Origin: Magnetococcales bacterium
GTDB taxonomy: Bacteria > Pseudomonadota > Magnetococcia > Magnetococcales > JADGAP01
Direction of reading: 5' to 3'
DNA length: 35,196 nucleotides
NCBI GenBank assembly: GCA_015231965.1
Contig: JADGAP010000016.1
Span: forward strand, 1 to 35,196
Positions 118-15,755 of this stretch are shown in pieces (the first letter of the stretch is position 1; each line of letters starts with the position of its first letter). The translations under genes were made by a program, and so were the position numbers. The notes under the pieces were generated by a model. It was given only the letters and a program-made list of their open reading frames with translations. It had not been told where the DNA came from and ran no database searches.

Positions 118-2232
118 ATGAGTGAACCGAATGAACTACCCCCTGGAACAGAACTCATAGGCCAATACACCATTAAAAGAGTACTTGGAAAAGGTGGTTT
201 TGGAATTGTATACCTTGCAGATGACAACCTAGGAAGAGAAGTTGCTATCAAAGAATTCTTCCCACAGCAGTACGCAAAAAGAGACGGCGATATCATCATT
301 CCACTTCCAAACAAAAATGATCACTTCCAACGTGAAAAAGAAAAAATCAAGAGCGAGGCGCGCAGAATCGCTCAATTAAATGACACATCGATTATTAAGA
401 TAATCACCATGTTTGATATCAACAAAACATGCTATTTTGTAATGGAATACAAGGATGGCGACAATCTCGAAAAGATTATAAATAATAGGCCTGAAGAGTC
501 TCCTTTTTCAGAGGAAGAATTACTGGAATTTACAAGGGAGATGATCGATGCCCTCGCAAAAGTCCACAAACTTGAAACGTGCCATAGAGATATCAAGCCT
601 GAGAACATCTACATCTGCTTTGATGGGACCCCTGTTATAATTGATTTCGGATCCGCTAGAGAACTCTCCCCCCAGAATAATAATTTAACTATTGTTACAA
701 GCGACGGATATTCACCACCGGAGGTCTATACAGGTGTTAGTAAATTACATGGACCATGGACGGACATTTTTTCCTTAGCTGCAGTACTATATAAAACAAT
801 CACAAGAATCACTCCTCATAACTCGATAAATAGAAAAGCTAGAATTGAGCTCGGCGAAACCGATCCAATATTGAATTTCACCGATAGATTAGCATCCAAA
901 TATTCTAATAAATTCTTAGAAGCAATCCTAATTAGCCTAAATGTTGACCACTCAAAACGCCCCCAAACATTTGATGAATTTTACTCACTACTTTCCGGAG
1001 AAACGCAGTGGCTGAATGAGGAACAAGACTTAACTCCAAGCACTTCACCAGACACAGGAAATAAGTGCGTGCAACCAGACTCGCAACTAAACAATGCCAA
1101 CACAATATTAAACTTATATTCACACTCCGAGGAACCGATTTCACATCATTCTGACGACTCCTTTAAGACAAACTTACCCTTACAATTCGAGACATCACTA
1201 CTTCAGGACAAAGACCACCACTCAAATAATATCTCCTCACAAGAAACTAATATTCCCGTAACCGCCGAAAATCATCATTCGATTCCACAGCAGCCGCTAC
1301 TAGGAAGCGTAATCGATAACTCAAATAAAGAAGATCCCCCAACTAGCCTTACCTCAACAAAGTTCACTTCTCCAAGCGATTATCGACAAACATTCTTTCT
1401 GCTATTATCTTCAACAATCATCATCACTCTCCTAATATACTTAAACTACAACTTATCAATACTTACCAAATCTCTGAACGCCATCCCTTCTAAATATGAA
1501 AGCGCCCTATCCCTCGCAAAAGACGCTGGCATCAATAACGCACACTCTATTGAATCCATCACGGAGAAGTTATCGATTATTCATACATCCTTGACTGATA
1601 ACCGTATAATCGCAAATCAACAATCTGATAAAATTTCCTTACTTGAAACTAATATGAACGACATAAAGAACAACCTATTGATCGCAACTGAAGCTCTTAA
1701 AAGCAACAGTCATCCAAAAAACAAGGTTAACCCGCTAGAAAAACTGTCATCTTCATTATCCCCCCAACCTAAACATCCAGTCCTCCCAACGGAACCACCT
1801 CCAATTGACACTCCGACCACCAAAATGGATTTTATTGAGATCAAACCTGTTGATGAAATGAGCAATAAATCTGCTTTCTGCAGAAGAAAGGGCAGAATAT
1901 ATCTAGGAGTTGATCATCTAATTTGTTCTGTCGAAAGGCTTGAGACTTTAAATGATCAATTGAGTGGAGAATGGAATAAATTGAAAAATTCGTCTCCTAA
2001 TTTCAAAATTGACTTAGAAAATCAACAGACTTGGATTGCGCGCTACGGAAAGAACTGTGGGATAAATAGAGAAAGCGCTAGTGTAGGCTCTAGAATAAGC
2101 GTGGAACAAGTCGATTGTATAGCAAATGAGATTTTGACTAGAATATCAGAAATCAAGGAAATAACAAGATCATACATTGAGAACAGAAAGATATCCACAA
2201 TAAATAAGTTAGGTGAGACTGGAGACCCCTAA
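118..2232 (+). CDS. Membrane Ser/Thr protein kinase with C-terminal LprI-like domain
   Basis: This is a Hanks-type protein kinase. The glycine loop is GKGGFG at residues 24-29, the VAIK lysine is K45, E80 is the likely helix-C glutamate, HRDIKPEN spans 156-163 (catalytic D158), DFG is 176-178 and a PPE motif follows near 200. A low-complexity Ser/Thr/Asn-rich linker (about 300-420) leads to one membrane helix at about 426-445, then a coiled-coil-like stretch. The last ~110 residues hold four cysteines (588, 603, 647, 667) and a QQTWIARYGKNC segment, which resembles LprI/DUF1311 lysozyme-inhibitor-type domains. The kinase would face the cytoplasm and the Cys-rich domain the periplasm. Base composition is strikingly AT-rich compared with everything downstream, which suggests acquisition by transfer. 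The start is the first ATG, with a GGAG about 13 nt upstream. The kinase call is firm; the C-terminal domain is a motif-level inference. Confidence 0.9.
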   Translation: MSEPNELPPGTELIGQYTIKRVLGKGGFGIVYLADDNLGREVAIKEFFPQQYAKRDGDIIIPLPNKNDHFQREKEKIKSEARRIAQLNDTSIIKIITMFDINKTCYFVMEYKDGDNLEKIINNRPEESPFSEEELLEFTREMIDALAKVHKLETCHRDIKPENIYICFDGTPVIIDFGSARELSPQNNNLTIVTSDGYSPPEVYTGVSKLHGPWTDIFSLAAVLYKTITRITPHNSINRKARIELGETDPILNFTDRLASKYSNKFLEAILISLNVDHSKRPQTFDEFYSLLSGETQWLNEEQDLTPSTSPDTGNKCVQPDSQLNNANTILNLYSHSEEPISHHSDDSFKTNLPLQFETSLLQDKDHHSNNISSQETNIPVTAENHHSIPQQPLLGSVIDNSNKEDPPTSLTSTKFTSPSDYRQTFFLLLSSTIIITLLIYLNYNLSILTKSLNAIPSKYESALSLAKDAGINNAHSIESITEKLSIIHTSLTDNRIIANQQSDKISLLETNMNDIKNNLLIATEALKSNSHPKNKVNPLEKLSSSLSPQPKHPVLPTEPPPIDTPTTKMDFIEIKPVDEMSNKSAFCRRKGRIYLGVDHLICSVERLETLNDQLSGEWNKLKNSSPNFKIDLENQQTWIARYGKNCGINRESASVGSRISVEQVDCIANEILTRISEIKEITRSYIENRKISTINKLGETGDP

Positions 2233-11746: not shown

Positions 11747-12730
11747 TCACCATCCGGAGCCGCCGCGCATCAACCATTCCAAAATCGCCTTCTGCACGTG
11801 CAGGCGATTTTCCGCCTCGTCCCACACCACCGATTGAGGGCCGTCGATCACCTCGGCGGAGACCTCCTCGCCGCGATGGGCGGGCAGGCAGTGCATGAAC
11901 AGGGCCTCCTTGTCGGCCAGGGCCATCAGGGGACCGTCCACCACGTAGCCTTTAAAGGCCTCCTGCCGCCGCAGCCGCTCCTCCTCCTGGCCCATGGAGG
12001 TCCAGACGTCGGTGGTCACCAGATGAGCCCCGGCGGCGGCCTCCCGGGGATCCCGCACCACCTCCACCGAGGCGTTGGCCCCCGATTCGGCGATGAGGCG
12101 GCGGGTTTTGTCCAGCACCGCGTCGCAGGGTTGATACTCCCGGGGGCAGGCGATGACCAGATGGAACCCCGCCATGCGGGCCGCCTGAATCCAGGTGTTG
12201 GCCATGTTGTTGCCATCGCCGATCCAGGCCACCTTCTTGCCCCGCAGGGAGCCCACCCCCCGCTGCTCCTCGAAGGTGAAGAGATCCGCCAGCACCTGAC
12301 AGGGATGAAAGCTGTCCGACAGACCGTTGATCACCGGAATGCCGGCGTGTTGCGCCATCAGCTCCACGTTTTGGTGGGCGAAGGTGCGCACCATCAGGCC
12401 ATCGACGTAACGGGACAACACCCGGGCGCTGTCGGCGATGGGTTCGCCCCGCCCCAACTGCAACTCCCGCGACGACAAAAACAACGCCATCCCCCCCAAT
12501 TGAAACATCCCCGCCTCGAAGGAGACCCGGGTGCGGGTGGAGGATTTTTCAAAAATCATCCCCAGGGTGCGTCCCTCCAGGGTGCGGTGGGGCTCCCCCC
12601 GATGTTGCATTCCCTTGAGGACGCCCGCCCGGTGAAACAGATGGGACATCTCCTCCGGACGCACGTCGTCCAGGGTCAAGAGATCGTGTTTTTTGGGGAG
12701 AGGATTAGGCATGGGGTTATCCAAGTTCAC
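11747..12730 (-). CDS. argF: Ornithine carbamoyltransferase
   Basis: ArgF makes citrulline from ornithine and carbamoyl phosphate. The carbamoyl-phosphate site FEKSSTRTRVSFEAGMFQLGG, the HPCQVLADLFTFEE motif and the ornithine-side motif MHCLPAHRGEEVSAEV are all present. Length is about 327 residues. The frame opens at GTG 12730, and an in-frame ATG at 12712 (MPNPLPKKHDLL) is an alternative; neither has a strong ribosome-binding site. Upstream is the cyclase-like gene, 46 nt away, which separates argF from argD. Confidence 0.97.
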   Translation of the reverse strand: MNLDNPMPNPLPKKHDLLTLDDVRPEEMSHLFHRAGVLKGMQHRGEPHRTLEGRTLGMIFEKSSTRTRVSFEAGMFQLGGMALFLSSRELQLGRGEPIADSARVLSRYVDGLMVRTFAHQNVELMAQHAGIPVINGLSDSFHPCQVLADLFTFEEQRGVGSLRGKKVAWIGDGNNMANTWIQAARMAGFHLVIACPREYQPCDAVLDKTRRLIAESGANASVEVVRDPREAAAGAHLVTTDVWTSMGQEEERLRRQEAFKGYVVDGPLMALADKEALFMHCLPAHRGEEVSAEVIDGPQSVVWDEAENRLHVQKAILEWLMRGGSGW

Positions 12731-12776: not shown

Positions 12777-13955
12777 TCACGGTGGGTTCACGCCATGTCG
12801 CGTAGCCATCAATCCAAGTGCTTCCACCGTGTCATCCGGATCTTCCAAGGTTTCCGTACCATAAGAATCAGGCGGCGTATCGGTACGGGATTTGTTCCAC
12901 AACGCCGCCAAGACTCTCAACCTCTTCCGATGCCTTTCCGGAACATCGATGGAATCCTCCAGGGAATCCCGGTTCCATACAAAGGGACGCATGACATGAC
13001 CGCCCTCCTGGGACGCGAAAAACGCCTCACAAAATTCCTGAACCGCTTGAGCTTCGGGCATCTTTTGATCCTTCAGTTTATCTTCAAGATCGTGTAGCGA
13101 TTTATTGGGCTCGGAATCCTCCATGTCTATCCAAAAAAAGGGGTAGGGGCGTCCAGCCGTAACGCCCTTCAACTCGATTCCGCCATCATATCGAAAAAAC
13201 ATCGTCAACTCTGGATCGTTCCTGACAAGATCACTCACATTACGGTAGGTGCTGGAAAGCATCCACGCCAGATCCACCGTCAGCGCCAGCTTTCTTGGCG
13301 TTGCGCGAGTAGCGACCCGGAATCCCGTGTCCATTGAAGGACCGATGAAGTCGCGAATCAGCCCCGCGCGCCCGAAGGGCTCCGGCGAATAATACGTATT
13401 CAGGCATTTCATGTTGGAAACGACGGAGTCGTCGTCATCGCAATCATCTTCAAGACGACCGCGGAATCTCGACCTTAATACGACTTCCGTGTTGTTGACG
13501 GGAAATCCCGCGAGCCATGCCGCCGCCTTGAGGTCCAATTTTGGAAACTTGCTTTTCAACTCGGGACGATACTGATTGACCGCCATCTTCCAGGCGAGTA
13601 CGCATGTCAGGATTTGATGTTGATCGCTGATTATTTTCTGATAAATGACCTCGTCTCCTGCGGCTTTCCAAAATTCAGGTGCCTCGCCGGGTTGCCATCT
13701 TTTACGAGTTCTCAGGAGATGGGACGTCCTTTGCCAATAATCAGCGAAGTATTTTTCGATTCTTCCATAAAATTGCGTAATAGGAACAAACCACGGCTCC
13801 GACGTCGCCTCATCCGCCTGATCTCCACCTCCCTTGGAGGCATCCTGCTTGAAAGCCGTCGAGTTGACGACATCGACGCTCAAGAAAAGCCTCAACTTGG
13901 GATGAAGAAATTCCGGCCAAGTTTCCGGCGGCGGATCTCGGTCATGTTCGCTCAA
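12777..13955 (-). CDS. Divergent class III nucleotidyl cyclase-like protein
   Basis: The 392-residue product has the layout of a class III adenylate/guanylate cyclase catalytic domain. LRLFLSVDVVNSTAF at 21-35 supplies a metal-binding Asp (D28). FWKAAGDEVIYQ at 95-106 supplies the second (D101), with K97 at the usual base-recognising position. LKAAAWLAGFPVNNTEVVL at 142-160 fits the central strand. FIGPSMDTGFRVATRATPRKLALTVDLA at 203-230 sits where cyclases carry the D-x-x-N-x-x-x-R motif, but the Asn position is not conserved. No membrane helix or sensor domain is visible; the C-terminal ~170 residues are unrecognised. The start is TTG at 13955, overlapping the peptidase stop by 4 nt with GGAGAG 8 nt upstream, so the two are probably translationally coupled. 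Composition is less GC-rich than the flanking arg genes. The cyclase fold is well supported by motifs; the activity and nucleotide used are unknown. Confidence 0.75.
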   Translation of the reverse strand: MSEHDRDPPPETWPEFLHPKLRLFLSVDVVNSTAFKQDASKGGGDQADEATSEPWFVPITQFYGRIEKYFADYWQRTSHLLRTRKRWQPGEAPEFWKAAGDEVIYQKIISDQHQILTCVLAWKMAVNQYRPELKSKFPKLDLKAAAWLAGFPVNNTEVVLRSRFRGRLEDDCDDDDSVVSNMKCLNTYYSPEPFGRAGLIRDFIGPSMDTGFRVATRATPRKLALTVDLAWMLSSTYRNVSDLVRNDPELTMFFRYDGGIELKGVTAGRPYPFFWIDMEDSEPNKSLHDLEDKLKDQKMPEAQAVQEFCEAFFASQEGGHVMRPFVWNRDSLEDSIDVPERHRKRLRVLAALWNKSRTDTPPDSYGTETLEDPDDTVEALGLMATRHGVNPP

Positions 13956-14500
13956 TGAACCAACTCTCCAGTCAGCCCCAGAGAGTCCGCACGAATTTTC
14001 GCTGCGGAAACGGATACATCGAAATGCTTGGCGATGGCCATCGGATCGCCGTCATTCTCGAAGAAGACGTTGCGAAACGCTGATTCCGGCATGAGAAACG
14101 CCGCGGCGAACCAGTGCGCCTCGGATTCGGTTCTGCCCGACCCGTATCGGGCCACTTTCAAGGGCCGTTGATCTTGTTTCAGGATCTTCAGCGGATACAG
14201 AAAGTGGAGGATGTAATGGCCGATCTCGTGCGCAATGGTGAACCGATCCCGTTCATGGCTGGAGCTGCGTCCAAGATAGATCTTGAAGTCGCCTACGCCG
14301 TCAATTTGAATGGAACCGTCCATGGTGGAGTCGAGATCCCAGAAATTCTGGAAGATGATCTTCCCTCCCATTTGCTCGACGATAGGCGGCATGGGAGTTC
14401 CCGGCTTGTATTCAAGCTGCCTGGCGACGGATTCCGCCAGTTGCATCACGGACTGTTTCGTCAGATTGCATGGTTCCGGTCCACTGTACGCGCTTTCCAT
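13952..14500 (-). CDS. ImmA/IrrE-family zinc metallopeptidase
   Basis: The product is about 182 residues and has the zinc motif FTIAHEIGHYILHF (HEIGH at 91-95) and a downstream ESEAHWFAAAFLMP segment, whose Glu should be the third ligand. The C-terminal AIAKHFDVSVSAAKIRADSLGL helix pair is standard for ImmA/IrrE proteins. Family members cleave specific transcriptional repressors (for example ImmR or DdrO) upon a signal. No helix-turn-helix domain is fused and no repressor gene is adjacent. I place the start at ATG 14500, preceded by GGGAGA, rather than GTG at 14530, which lacks such a site. The stop overlaps the TTG of the cyclase-like gene. The pair interrupts the arginine cluster between argD and argF. 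Confidence 0.9.
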   Translation of the reverse strand: MESAYSGPEPCNLTKQSVMQLAESVARQLEYKPGTPMPPIVEQMGGKIIFQNFWDLDSTMDGSIQIDGVGDFKIYLGRSSSHERDRFTIAHEIGHYILHFLYPLKILKQDQRPLKVARYGSGRTESEAHWFAAAFLMPESAFRNVFFENDGDPMAIAKHFDVSVSAAKIRADSLGLTGELVH

Positions 14501-14553
14501 CGTCGCTCTCCCGTGTTCGCGCGTGATCACCCGACAGTTTAGACGATTTCAAC

Positions 14554-15723
14554 CTAGAAAAGGTCCGTCATGGCCCCATCGAGAATGGCCACGGCCTGGT
14601 CCATCTCCGCTTCACTGACCACCAGGGGGGGGAGCATGCGCAGGGTGGTTCCCAGTTGGCAGCTGATGAGCAACCCCCGGGAGAGACAGATGGCGTTGAG
14701 TTCCTCGGCGGGGCAGTTGAGTTCCACCCCCACCATCAACCCCCGCCCCCGCACCTGCTTGACCAGCTTGTGCCGTTGGATGAGGGGTTGCAGCTTGGCC
14801 CGCAACTGTTCGCCCTTGGCCGTCACCGAGGCCAGCAGGCCGTCATCCAGCAGAACCTCCAGGGTGGCGAGGGCGGCGGCGCAGGCCAGGGGATTGCCGC
14901 CGAAGGTGGAGCCGTGGGAACCCTGGGAAAAGGAGGCGGCCACCTCGGCCTTGGCCAGGCAGGCCCCCATGGGAACCCCGCCGGCGATGGCCTTGGAGGC
15001 GGTCATGATGTCCGGAACCACGTCGCTCCACTGATGAGCCCACATTTTGCCGGTGCGGCCCATCCCGGTCTGCACCTCGTCCAGCACCAGCAACAGGCCA
15101 TGGCGGTCGGCGATGTCACGCAACGCCGCCAGATAGCCCTCCTCCGGCAGCCGCACCCCGCCCTCGCCCTGGATCGGCTCCATCAGGATGGCGGCGGTGT
15201 AGGGTCCGATGGCCTTTTCCACCGCCGCCGGATCGTTGTACGGCACGTAGTGGAAGCCGGGCAGCAGCGGATCGTACCCTTTATGCACCTTGCTCTGGCC
15301 GGTGGCCGAGAGGGTGGCCATGGTCCGCCCGTGGAAGCTGTTTTCCGCCGTGATGATCTCGAAGCGTCCGGGCAGGCCCCGGTCCTTCATGCATTTGCGC
15401 ACCAGCTTGATGGCCGCTTCGTTGGCCTCGGCACCGCTGTTGCAAAAAAAGACCTGATCGGCGAAACAGGTGGACACCAACCGCTCGGCCAACCGCTCTT
15501 GCAGCGGAATGCGGTAGAGATTGGAGGTGTGCATCAGGGTTCCGGCCTGACGGCGGATCGCCTCCACCACCTTGGGGTGGCAGTGGCCCAGATTGTTCAC
15601 TCCGATGCCGGAGAGAAAATCCAGATATTCCTTGCCCTGCGAATCCCACAGCCGAACCCCCTCCCCCCGCTCGAAAGCGACGGGAAAACGTCCGTAGGTG
15701 GGCATGACCGCGCTGCTGTTCAT
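14554..15723 (-). CDS. argD: Acetylornithine aminotransferase
   Basis: ArgD is a PLP class III aminotransferase that makes N-acetylornithine. Motifs include LDFLSGIGVNNLGHCHPKVVEAI, FFCNSGAEANEAAIKLVRK, SFHGRTMATLSATGQ, EPIQGEGGVRLPEEGYL, LLVLDEVQTGMGRTGKMWAHQ and TASKAIAGGVPMGACLAK, where the lysine is the expected PLP residue. I favour ATG 15723 because GGAG lies about 6 nt upstream; ATG 15735 in the same frame has none. The length is 389 residues, normal. It probably heads the argD-F-G-H group, now split by the peptidase/cyclase islet. Confidence 0.97.
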   Translation of the reverse strand: MNSSAVMPTYGRFPVAFERGEGVRLWDSQGKEYLDFLSGIGVNNLGHCHPKVVEAIRRQAGTLMHTSNLYRIPLQERLAERLVSTCFADQVFFCNSGAEANEAAIKLVRKCMKDRGLPGRFEIITAENSFHGRTMATLSATGQSKVHKGYDPLLPGFHYVPYNDPAAVEKAIGPYTAAILMEPIQGEGGVRLPEEGYLAALRDIADRHGLLLVLDEVQTGMGRTGKMWAHQWSDVVPDIMTASKAIAGGVPMGACLAKAEVAASFSQGSHGSTFGGNPLACAAALATLEVLLDDGLLASVTAKGEQLRAKLQPLIQRHKLVKQVRGRGLMVGVELNCPAEELNAICLSRGLLISCQLGTTLRMLPPLVVSEAEMDQAVAILDGAMTDLF

Positions 15724-15755
15724 CCTCCGCTCCATGAATAAACGTCAAAATGTTC

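Follow-up and report, generated by a model that had tools for sequence, protein, structure and literature searches.

A two-gene islet within an arginine gene cluster

The analysed window is a stretch of 35,196 nucleotides from a Magnetococcales bacterium (contig JADGAP010000016.1, forward strand). Reading of its open reading frames gave the minus-strand gene order argD, protease gene, cyclase gene, argF and argG (Table 1). The protease frame extends to a first GTG at 14530 (13952-14530), and the ATG that follows GGGAGA is the likelier start. A GGAGA-like site precedes each of the two likely starts (ATG at 14500 for the protease, TTG at 13955 for the cyclase), and the overlap of the protease stop codon with the cyclase start codon suggests that translation of the two genes is coupled. 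No same-strand promoter- or terminator-like site for the pair was found at the islet, and the gaps to argD (end at 14554) and argF (start at 12730 or 12711) are short, which places the pair within an operon.

Table 1 Features of the islet and its flanking genes, in window positions
Feature	Positions	Strand	Description and basis
argF, downstream flank of the islet	11747..12730	-	GTG at 12730, ATG at 12711 possible; ORF
Divergent class III nucleotidyl cyclase (predicted)	12777..13955	-	392 aa, TTG start; ORF, fold model, conserved residues
Cyclase C-terminal tail	12777..12882	-	Residues from about 359 to 392 and the stop codon; disorder predicted
TTGA overlap, protease TGA stop and cyclase TTG start	13952..13955	-	4 nt; sequence reading
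ImmA/IrrE (M78) zinc metallopeptidase	13952..14500	-	182 aa, ATG at 14500; protease domain alone, without HTH
argD, upstream flank of the islet	14554..15735	-	ORF; synteny

The GC content of the islet is 53.2%, against 65.1% for argD, 64.8% for argF and 63.8% for argG, and GC3 is 0.58 in the cyclase gene and 0.67 in the protease gene against 0.84-0.85 in argD and argF. When argF was searched in 48 genomes of Magnetococcales and the 29 best loci from other genomes were inspected, argD directly adjoined argF in all 29, indicating that the pair is an inserted islet that is co-directional with the arg genes. No flanking repeats were found at the argD-argF insertion. The initial annotation had described a tightly coupled cyclase and ImmA/IrrE pair inserted in the arginine cluster with GC below that of its neighbors, and the overlap, the base composition and the gene order elsewhere all bear this out. 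Separately, a Ser/Thr kinase-like gene of low GC (about 39%) at the window start (118-2232, plus strand) is possibly another foreign islet.

A divergent cyclase recognized by its fold

The cyclase has no match at E ≤ 1 to models of Pfam, NCBIfam or PADLOC, its aligned relatives are likewise without a library-model match, and a sequence search against the PDB returned nothing significant. An AlphaFold2 model computed with 69 relatives (mean pLDDT 87.8, pTM 0.88) was compared with the PDB by Foldseek, and the 50 best matches were all adenylyl or guanylyl cyclases (probability 1.00), with the Pseudomonas aeruginosa adenylyl cyclase CyaB at the top (3r5g, 7.8e-9) and CyaC at around 1e-7. Since the sequence libraries gave no match, the earlier call of a divergent class III nucleotidyl cyclase-like protein had rested on motifs; profile searches and structure prediction have now been run, and the fold model confirms the call. 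Membership in the DUF2652 family was considered and rejected, as the window cyclase family contains no DUF2652 match.

Residues D28, K97, G100, D101, E102, D209, R213 and G264 are invariant in all 69 aligned relatives. They include both metal positions (D28 and D101), the lysine of the base-recognition pair (K97) and the transition-state arginine (R213), while the position of the usual transition-state asparagine is occupied by Asp209. The second base-recognition position, 202, is Asp in 66 relatives and Glu in three, and position 263 is Lys or Arg. The register of D202, D209, R213 and K263 was taken from a weak, correctly aligned profile match to Rv1900c (E 1.3). Further invariant residues of the family are K36, W55, W96 and P152.

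Lys and Asp at the base-contact positions constitute an adenylyl signature (PMC4215837), and PycC enzymes have other base contacts (PMC11224242). The asparagine is lost in some active cyclases, and the active Rv1900c has His in its place (PMC4886424), so that Asp209 at this position need not preclude activity. Given the adenylyl-type Lys97/Asp202 pair, cAMP is our first guess for the cyclic-nucleotide product. The window protein is best described as a predicted enzyme, a divergent class III cyclase whose catalytic residues, the adenine-type Lys/Asp pair among them, appear complete apart from Asp209 in the Asn position. One relative (L017:1258-2724, the same gene as L056) is fused at its C-terminus to a Nudix-like domain (1.2e-7 to 3ees, the best PDB match), which links the cyclase family to nucleotide handling.

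A compact M78 protease

The assignment of the upstream gene to the ImmA/IrrE zinc peptidases held, with a match to PF06114 in Pfam (E 4e-17; score 62.6 bits, cut-off 22) and a match to the PADLOC capP profile (5e-25, spanning profile positions 3-150 of 242). The protein contains a HEIGH motif and an EAxxFA motif, which provides the third ligand. Its structural model (pLDDT 93.6) has no added nucleotide-binding domain. The best PDB match is CapP (7t5t, 3.5e-6), in an alignment that stops at CapP residue 177 of 291, the C-terminal sensor region being missing from the window protein. The 182-aa protein also matches the M78 half alone of the antitoxins RmrA and spr1629, and has no HTH. It appears to be a stripped-down protease of CapP/PprI type without the sensor domain that switches on PprI and, presumably, CapP.

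ImmA peptidases usually cut HTH repressors. The initial annotation had invoked this activity, which is usual for ImmA, but no HTH gene lies in the islet and the protease has no repressor partner beside it. HExxH is present in all listed partner proteases except two (L078:5342-5956, with QMLGH, and L108:5322-5954, with KQLGH), in which the other conserved residues are kept; cutting may therefore not always be needed.

The pair is a conserved unit

Scanning 84,980 species genomes with a sequence pattern recovered 267 cyclase relatives, and the best 80 of these were read together with 10 viral contigs. Directly upstream of the cyclase gene and in the same orientation, 69 of the 90 loci encode an M78 protease that belongs to the same subfamily; in most cases the two genes overlap or lie at most 25 nt apart. 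The protease-less loci number 21, and 18 of them form a single, fully supported Caulobacterales/Phenylobacterium clade in the tree. Within Magnetococcales, cyclase relatives are found in 14 of 48 genomes; of the 15 protease matches, 13 adjoin a full cyclase, one (G035) adjoins a cyclase fragment that lies at a contig end, and one (G003) is itself at a contig end.

Searching with the protease first is the stricter test, because M78 is a very large family. With the window protease as the sole query against 72,556 plasmids (E ≤ 1e-10), six records were recovered, identical to the six found with the cyclase. Distances in the cyclase and protease trees correlate (Spearman 0.54, against 0.32 for the best of 999 permutations), and 20 of 63 splits are common to both trees. 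Comparison of neighboring genes across the family revealed no conserved third gene other than lineage-specific ones, and no conserved repressor gene. Since the pair is kept across phyla, its adjacency is not due to chance; the coupling first noted at this one locus recurs at most of the loci surveyed, and the cyclase and protease constitute a real, widespread unit. The conditions named as refuting the initial annotation, a pair rarely adjacent and a failed fold prediction, were checked and neither applied. The one exception seen among the proteases is on a Leptospira plasmid (NZ_CP092745.1; L226:1418-1912; 87917-88411), which carries a second such protease (WP_225740635.1) without a cyclase; a small ORF and a dprA-like gene come after it.

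Distribution and mobility

Cyclase relatives occur in at least six phyla (Pseudomonadota, Spirochaetota, Actinomycetota, Verrucomicrobiota, Planctomycetota and Acidobacteriota), the Acidobacteriota copy being without a protease. Relatives are also found on plasmids (6 of 72,556), in prophages and in the Leptospira phage LE1. HTH regulators are encoded near the pair on Leptospira plasmids and prophages, while the Sphingomonas and IMG/VR copies are placed among phage head genes, a position typical of cargo. PADLOC defense-gene matches are present among the neighbors of relatives, an observation of presence rather than of enrichment. In phage LE1 (L029:84-1799), the annotation names the product of the protease gene an immunity-region protein, and a gene for a CI-like repressor is located close to the pair.

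The argD-argF insertion, the cargo position among phage head genes, the placement in the LE1 immunity region and the plasmid copies identify the islet as one mobile two-gene module. Because these two genes move jointly among numerous bacteria, plasmids and phages, they resemble a two-part signaling module that is so far undescribed and that probably serves stress or phage defense.

A predicted disordered cyclase tail mostly accompanies the protease

Residues 361-392 of the cyclase model have a mean pLDDT of 44-56. This predicted disordered tail (about residues 359-392) is present in protease-linked cyclases and mostly absent from protease-less ones. The segment that follows P272 has a median length of 124.5 residues in protease-linked cyclases (at least 107 in 78 of 80) and of 87 in protease-less ones (at most 92 in 24 of 27). 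The difference in length corresponds to the predicted disordered segment, and protease-less cyclases, which retain a full active site, mostly end where the ordered fold ends. Three protease-less cyclases are exceptions in having a long tail: L099; L100, which is a broken frame with a protease linked to its first half; and L103, whose close sister is linked to a protease. Phylogenetically independent contrasts of tail against protease gave two that agree, none that disagree and one that is uninformative, a small number of contrasts (p 0.5). We hypothesize that the disordered tail is likely the docking or cutting site of the protease.

The cyclases of the Caulobacterales clade (L087-L090, L098, L099, L104, L107, L110-L114, L117, L120-L122 and L130) have an intact active site and mostly a short C-terminus. 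Neighbor families shared within the clade suggest vertical inheritance, and these single-gene members represent a natural experiment on the role of the protease.

PycTM effectors adjoin some relatives

Relatives with an adjacent PycTM effector gene were found at four loci (L071, L072 from Methylomonas fluvii, L179 and L074). Across 251 Methylococcales genomes, the PycTM gene is immediately upstream of the protease gene in all three pairs; the two such genes checked against Pfam exceed the PF18967 cut-off, and that of L179 is a close homolog. In a prophage of Sphingomonas sp. BK235, the pair and a convergent PycTM-like gene (PF18967 score 29.0 against 27.2; PADLOC 2TM 7e-36 and PycTM 1e-21) have a phage head gene on one side and a gene for a head-tail connector on the other. 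All four PycTM cassettes retain a protease with an intact HExxH motif, which indicates that the protease is no replacement for an effector. Two further candidates were discarded: the gene upstream of the pair in L075 is a resolvase rather than a PycTM gene, and the operon next to L074 is not a separate CBASS or Pycsar unit, its other genes being phage head genes.

PF18967 is not rare in the phylum, occurring in 29 of 399 genomes, so the PycTM linkage rests on adjacency and not on presence. In a motif screen with flanks of about 1.5 kb, many high-scoring PF18967 matches had no cyclase nearby (L180-L191), and the Pfam family therefore seems broader than Pycsar.

At the window locus, the pair is flanked by argD and argF without an adjacent cyclic-nucleotide effector, and its genome contains no PycTM. 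The absence of a separate effector, part of the initial annotation, is thus correct at the window but too broad for the family, in which four relatives have PycTM genes. The window genome does contain 31 stretches with a match to the cNMP-binding domain, and a receptor could therefore act in trans. The proposed resemblance to the Pycsar cyclase likewise held in part: the fold is class III, but the base-contacting residues are of adenylyl type and no PycC was recognized, with no PADLOC match at E ≤ 1 (in a library that may or may not include PycC models). As hhalign gave no match to the PycTM-linked cyclase of L197 or to a canonical cyclase, a sequence-level link of the window cyclase to PycC was rejected.

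Possible functions of the pair

The reading that we favor, with confidence somewhat short of even, is a protease-gated cyclase signaling module in which the protease serves as dedicated gatekeeper of the cyclase. The second gene would produce a soluble, presumably homodimeric class III cyclase able to convert NTP to a 3′,5′-cyclic nucleotide. A stress or phage cue would direct the protease to the cyclase, with the disordered C-terminal tail as the probable site of action, and cyclic-nucleotide synthesis would thereby be either released or ended. The cyclic nucleotide would then act on PycTM where this is encoded (the Methylococcales operons and the Sphingomonas prophage), and elsewhere, including the window, on a host cyclic-nucleotide-binding protein. 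A gatekeeper role is preferred over an effector role because the PycTM cassettes keep an intact protease. Several observations count against it: PycTM is present at four loci alone, three of them close relatives, and is missing from the window genome; PF18967 is not rare; the tail contrasts are underpowered; and the L078 and L108 proteases have no HExxH. The purpose of the module is probably defense, a role that the mobile-element, prophage and PycTM links make plausible.

The protease may instead be the effector, a reading that we consider unlikely. The cyclase would sense infection, and the cyclic nucleotide or the cyclase itself would activate the protease to cut a host protein and stop growth. 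This would account for the lack of any other conserved partner gene at most loci, the window included, and for a protease subfamily that is almost never found without the cyclase; loss of the built-in sensor also means that control must come from something else. However, the PycTM operons retain the protease, two relatives keep a protease without HExxH, and the protease model has no added nucleotide-binding domain. It is quite improbable that the pair represents an undescribed immune or stress class in which a cyclic mononucleotide or the cyclase directly activates an executioner zinc protease, with neither a repressor nor a classical cyclic-nucleotide-binding effector.

Regulation of a mobile element is very unlikely. 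The pair would control lysogeny of a prophage, plasmid or ICE, the protease cutting a CI-like repressor under control of the cyclase, much as ImmA in ICEBs1 cuts the element's own repressor. The immunity-region position near a CI-type gene in phage LE1 and the HTH regulators near the pair on Leptospira plasmids and prophages fit such a role, but the pair has no conserved repressor gene nearby, the window copy stands alone between arginine genes with no surrounding element, and the Sphingomonas and IMG/VR copies are in a cargo position among head genes.

A toxin-antitoxin function, in which the cyclase would be the toxin, acting by signal overload or by draining NTP, and the protease an antitoxin like those with ImmA domains, has a lower probability again. 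Gene order, overlap and mobility are antitoxin-like, and the M78 domain is common to the RmrA and spr1629 antitoxins; these, however, have an HTH that the window protease does not, and intact cyclases persist alone in the whole Caulobacterales clade, unlike a toxin that depends on its antitoxin. Least probable of all is a metabolic or stress regulator that benefits the host and has no connection with phages, such as a stress signal carried by cAMP, which would suit the one clade kept without a protease, the 31 cNMP-binding matches in the host and the adenine-type residues, but not the patchy mobile distribution, the prophage and plasmid carriage or the PycTM linkage.

The analysis exposes a cyclase family that is missed by Pfam, NCBIfam and PADLOC and spans at least six phyla, along with the protease subfamily that matches it. 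If protease gating of the cyclase or execution by the protease is correct, cyclic-nucleotide immunity would have a new form of control or execution, through a protease tied one-to-one to a cyclase for cyclic mononucleotides, and the PycTM-linked members offer an immediate test bed.

Comparison with known systems

We found no description of this pairing of an M78 peptidase with a nucleotidyl cyclase in the open-licence literature. The pair shares with Pycsar a class III cyclase fold, mobility and, in four relatives, PycTM in the same cassette. It differs in its K/D adenine-type base contacts, in its near-constant protease partner, in the lack of an effector at the window and in its cyclase sequence, which has no detectable similarity to that of the PycTM-linked enzyme of L197.

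CapH and CapP, found in CBASS and other immune operons, are among the regulators that control such operons, including Pycsar, via an HTH repressor (PMC13373217). CapP shares the M78 fold and is the best PADLOC and PDB match of the window protease, whereas the islet has no CapH HTH repressor, its protease has no C-terminal sensor, its partner is a mononucleotide-type cyclase, and at most loci the pair is not appended to the promoter-proximal end of an immune operon. The M78 core is also common to PprI (IrrE) of the Deinococcus PprI/DdrO system, but PprI needs a C-terminal GAF-like domain for activation by ssDNA (PMC10904395) and the islet has no DdrO-like repressor. The RosmerTA and spr1629 antitoxins likewise place an M78 domain in a two-gene unit, but combine HTH and M78 in one protein opposite a non-cyclase toxin.

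Among cyclases, the window family shares with CyaB, CyaC and Rv1900c the fold, the two metal Asp residues, the Lys/Asp base pair, the transition-state Arg and the LKG lysine. Unlike them, it has Asp209 for Asn, the additional invariant residues K36, W55, W96, E102 and P152, and its own C-terminal helices and tail, and it falls below Pfam detection. DUF2652 proteins are another divergent, fold-detected class III branch with a different residue pair, and the available portion of their description reports no M78 partner (PMC4886424). Being kin in logic to Pycsar and to CapP control but without some defining features of each among those compared, the pair appears to be a variant of cyclic-nucleotide signaling.
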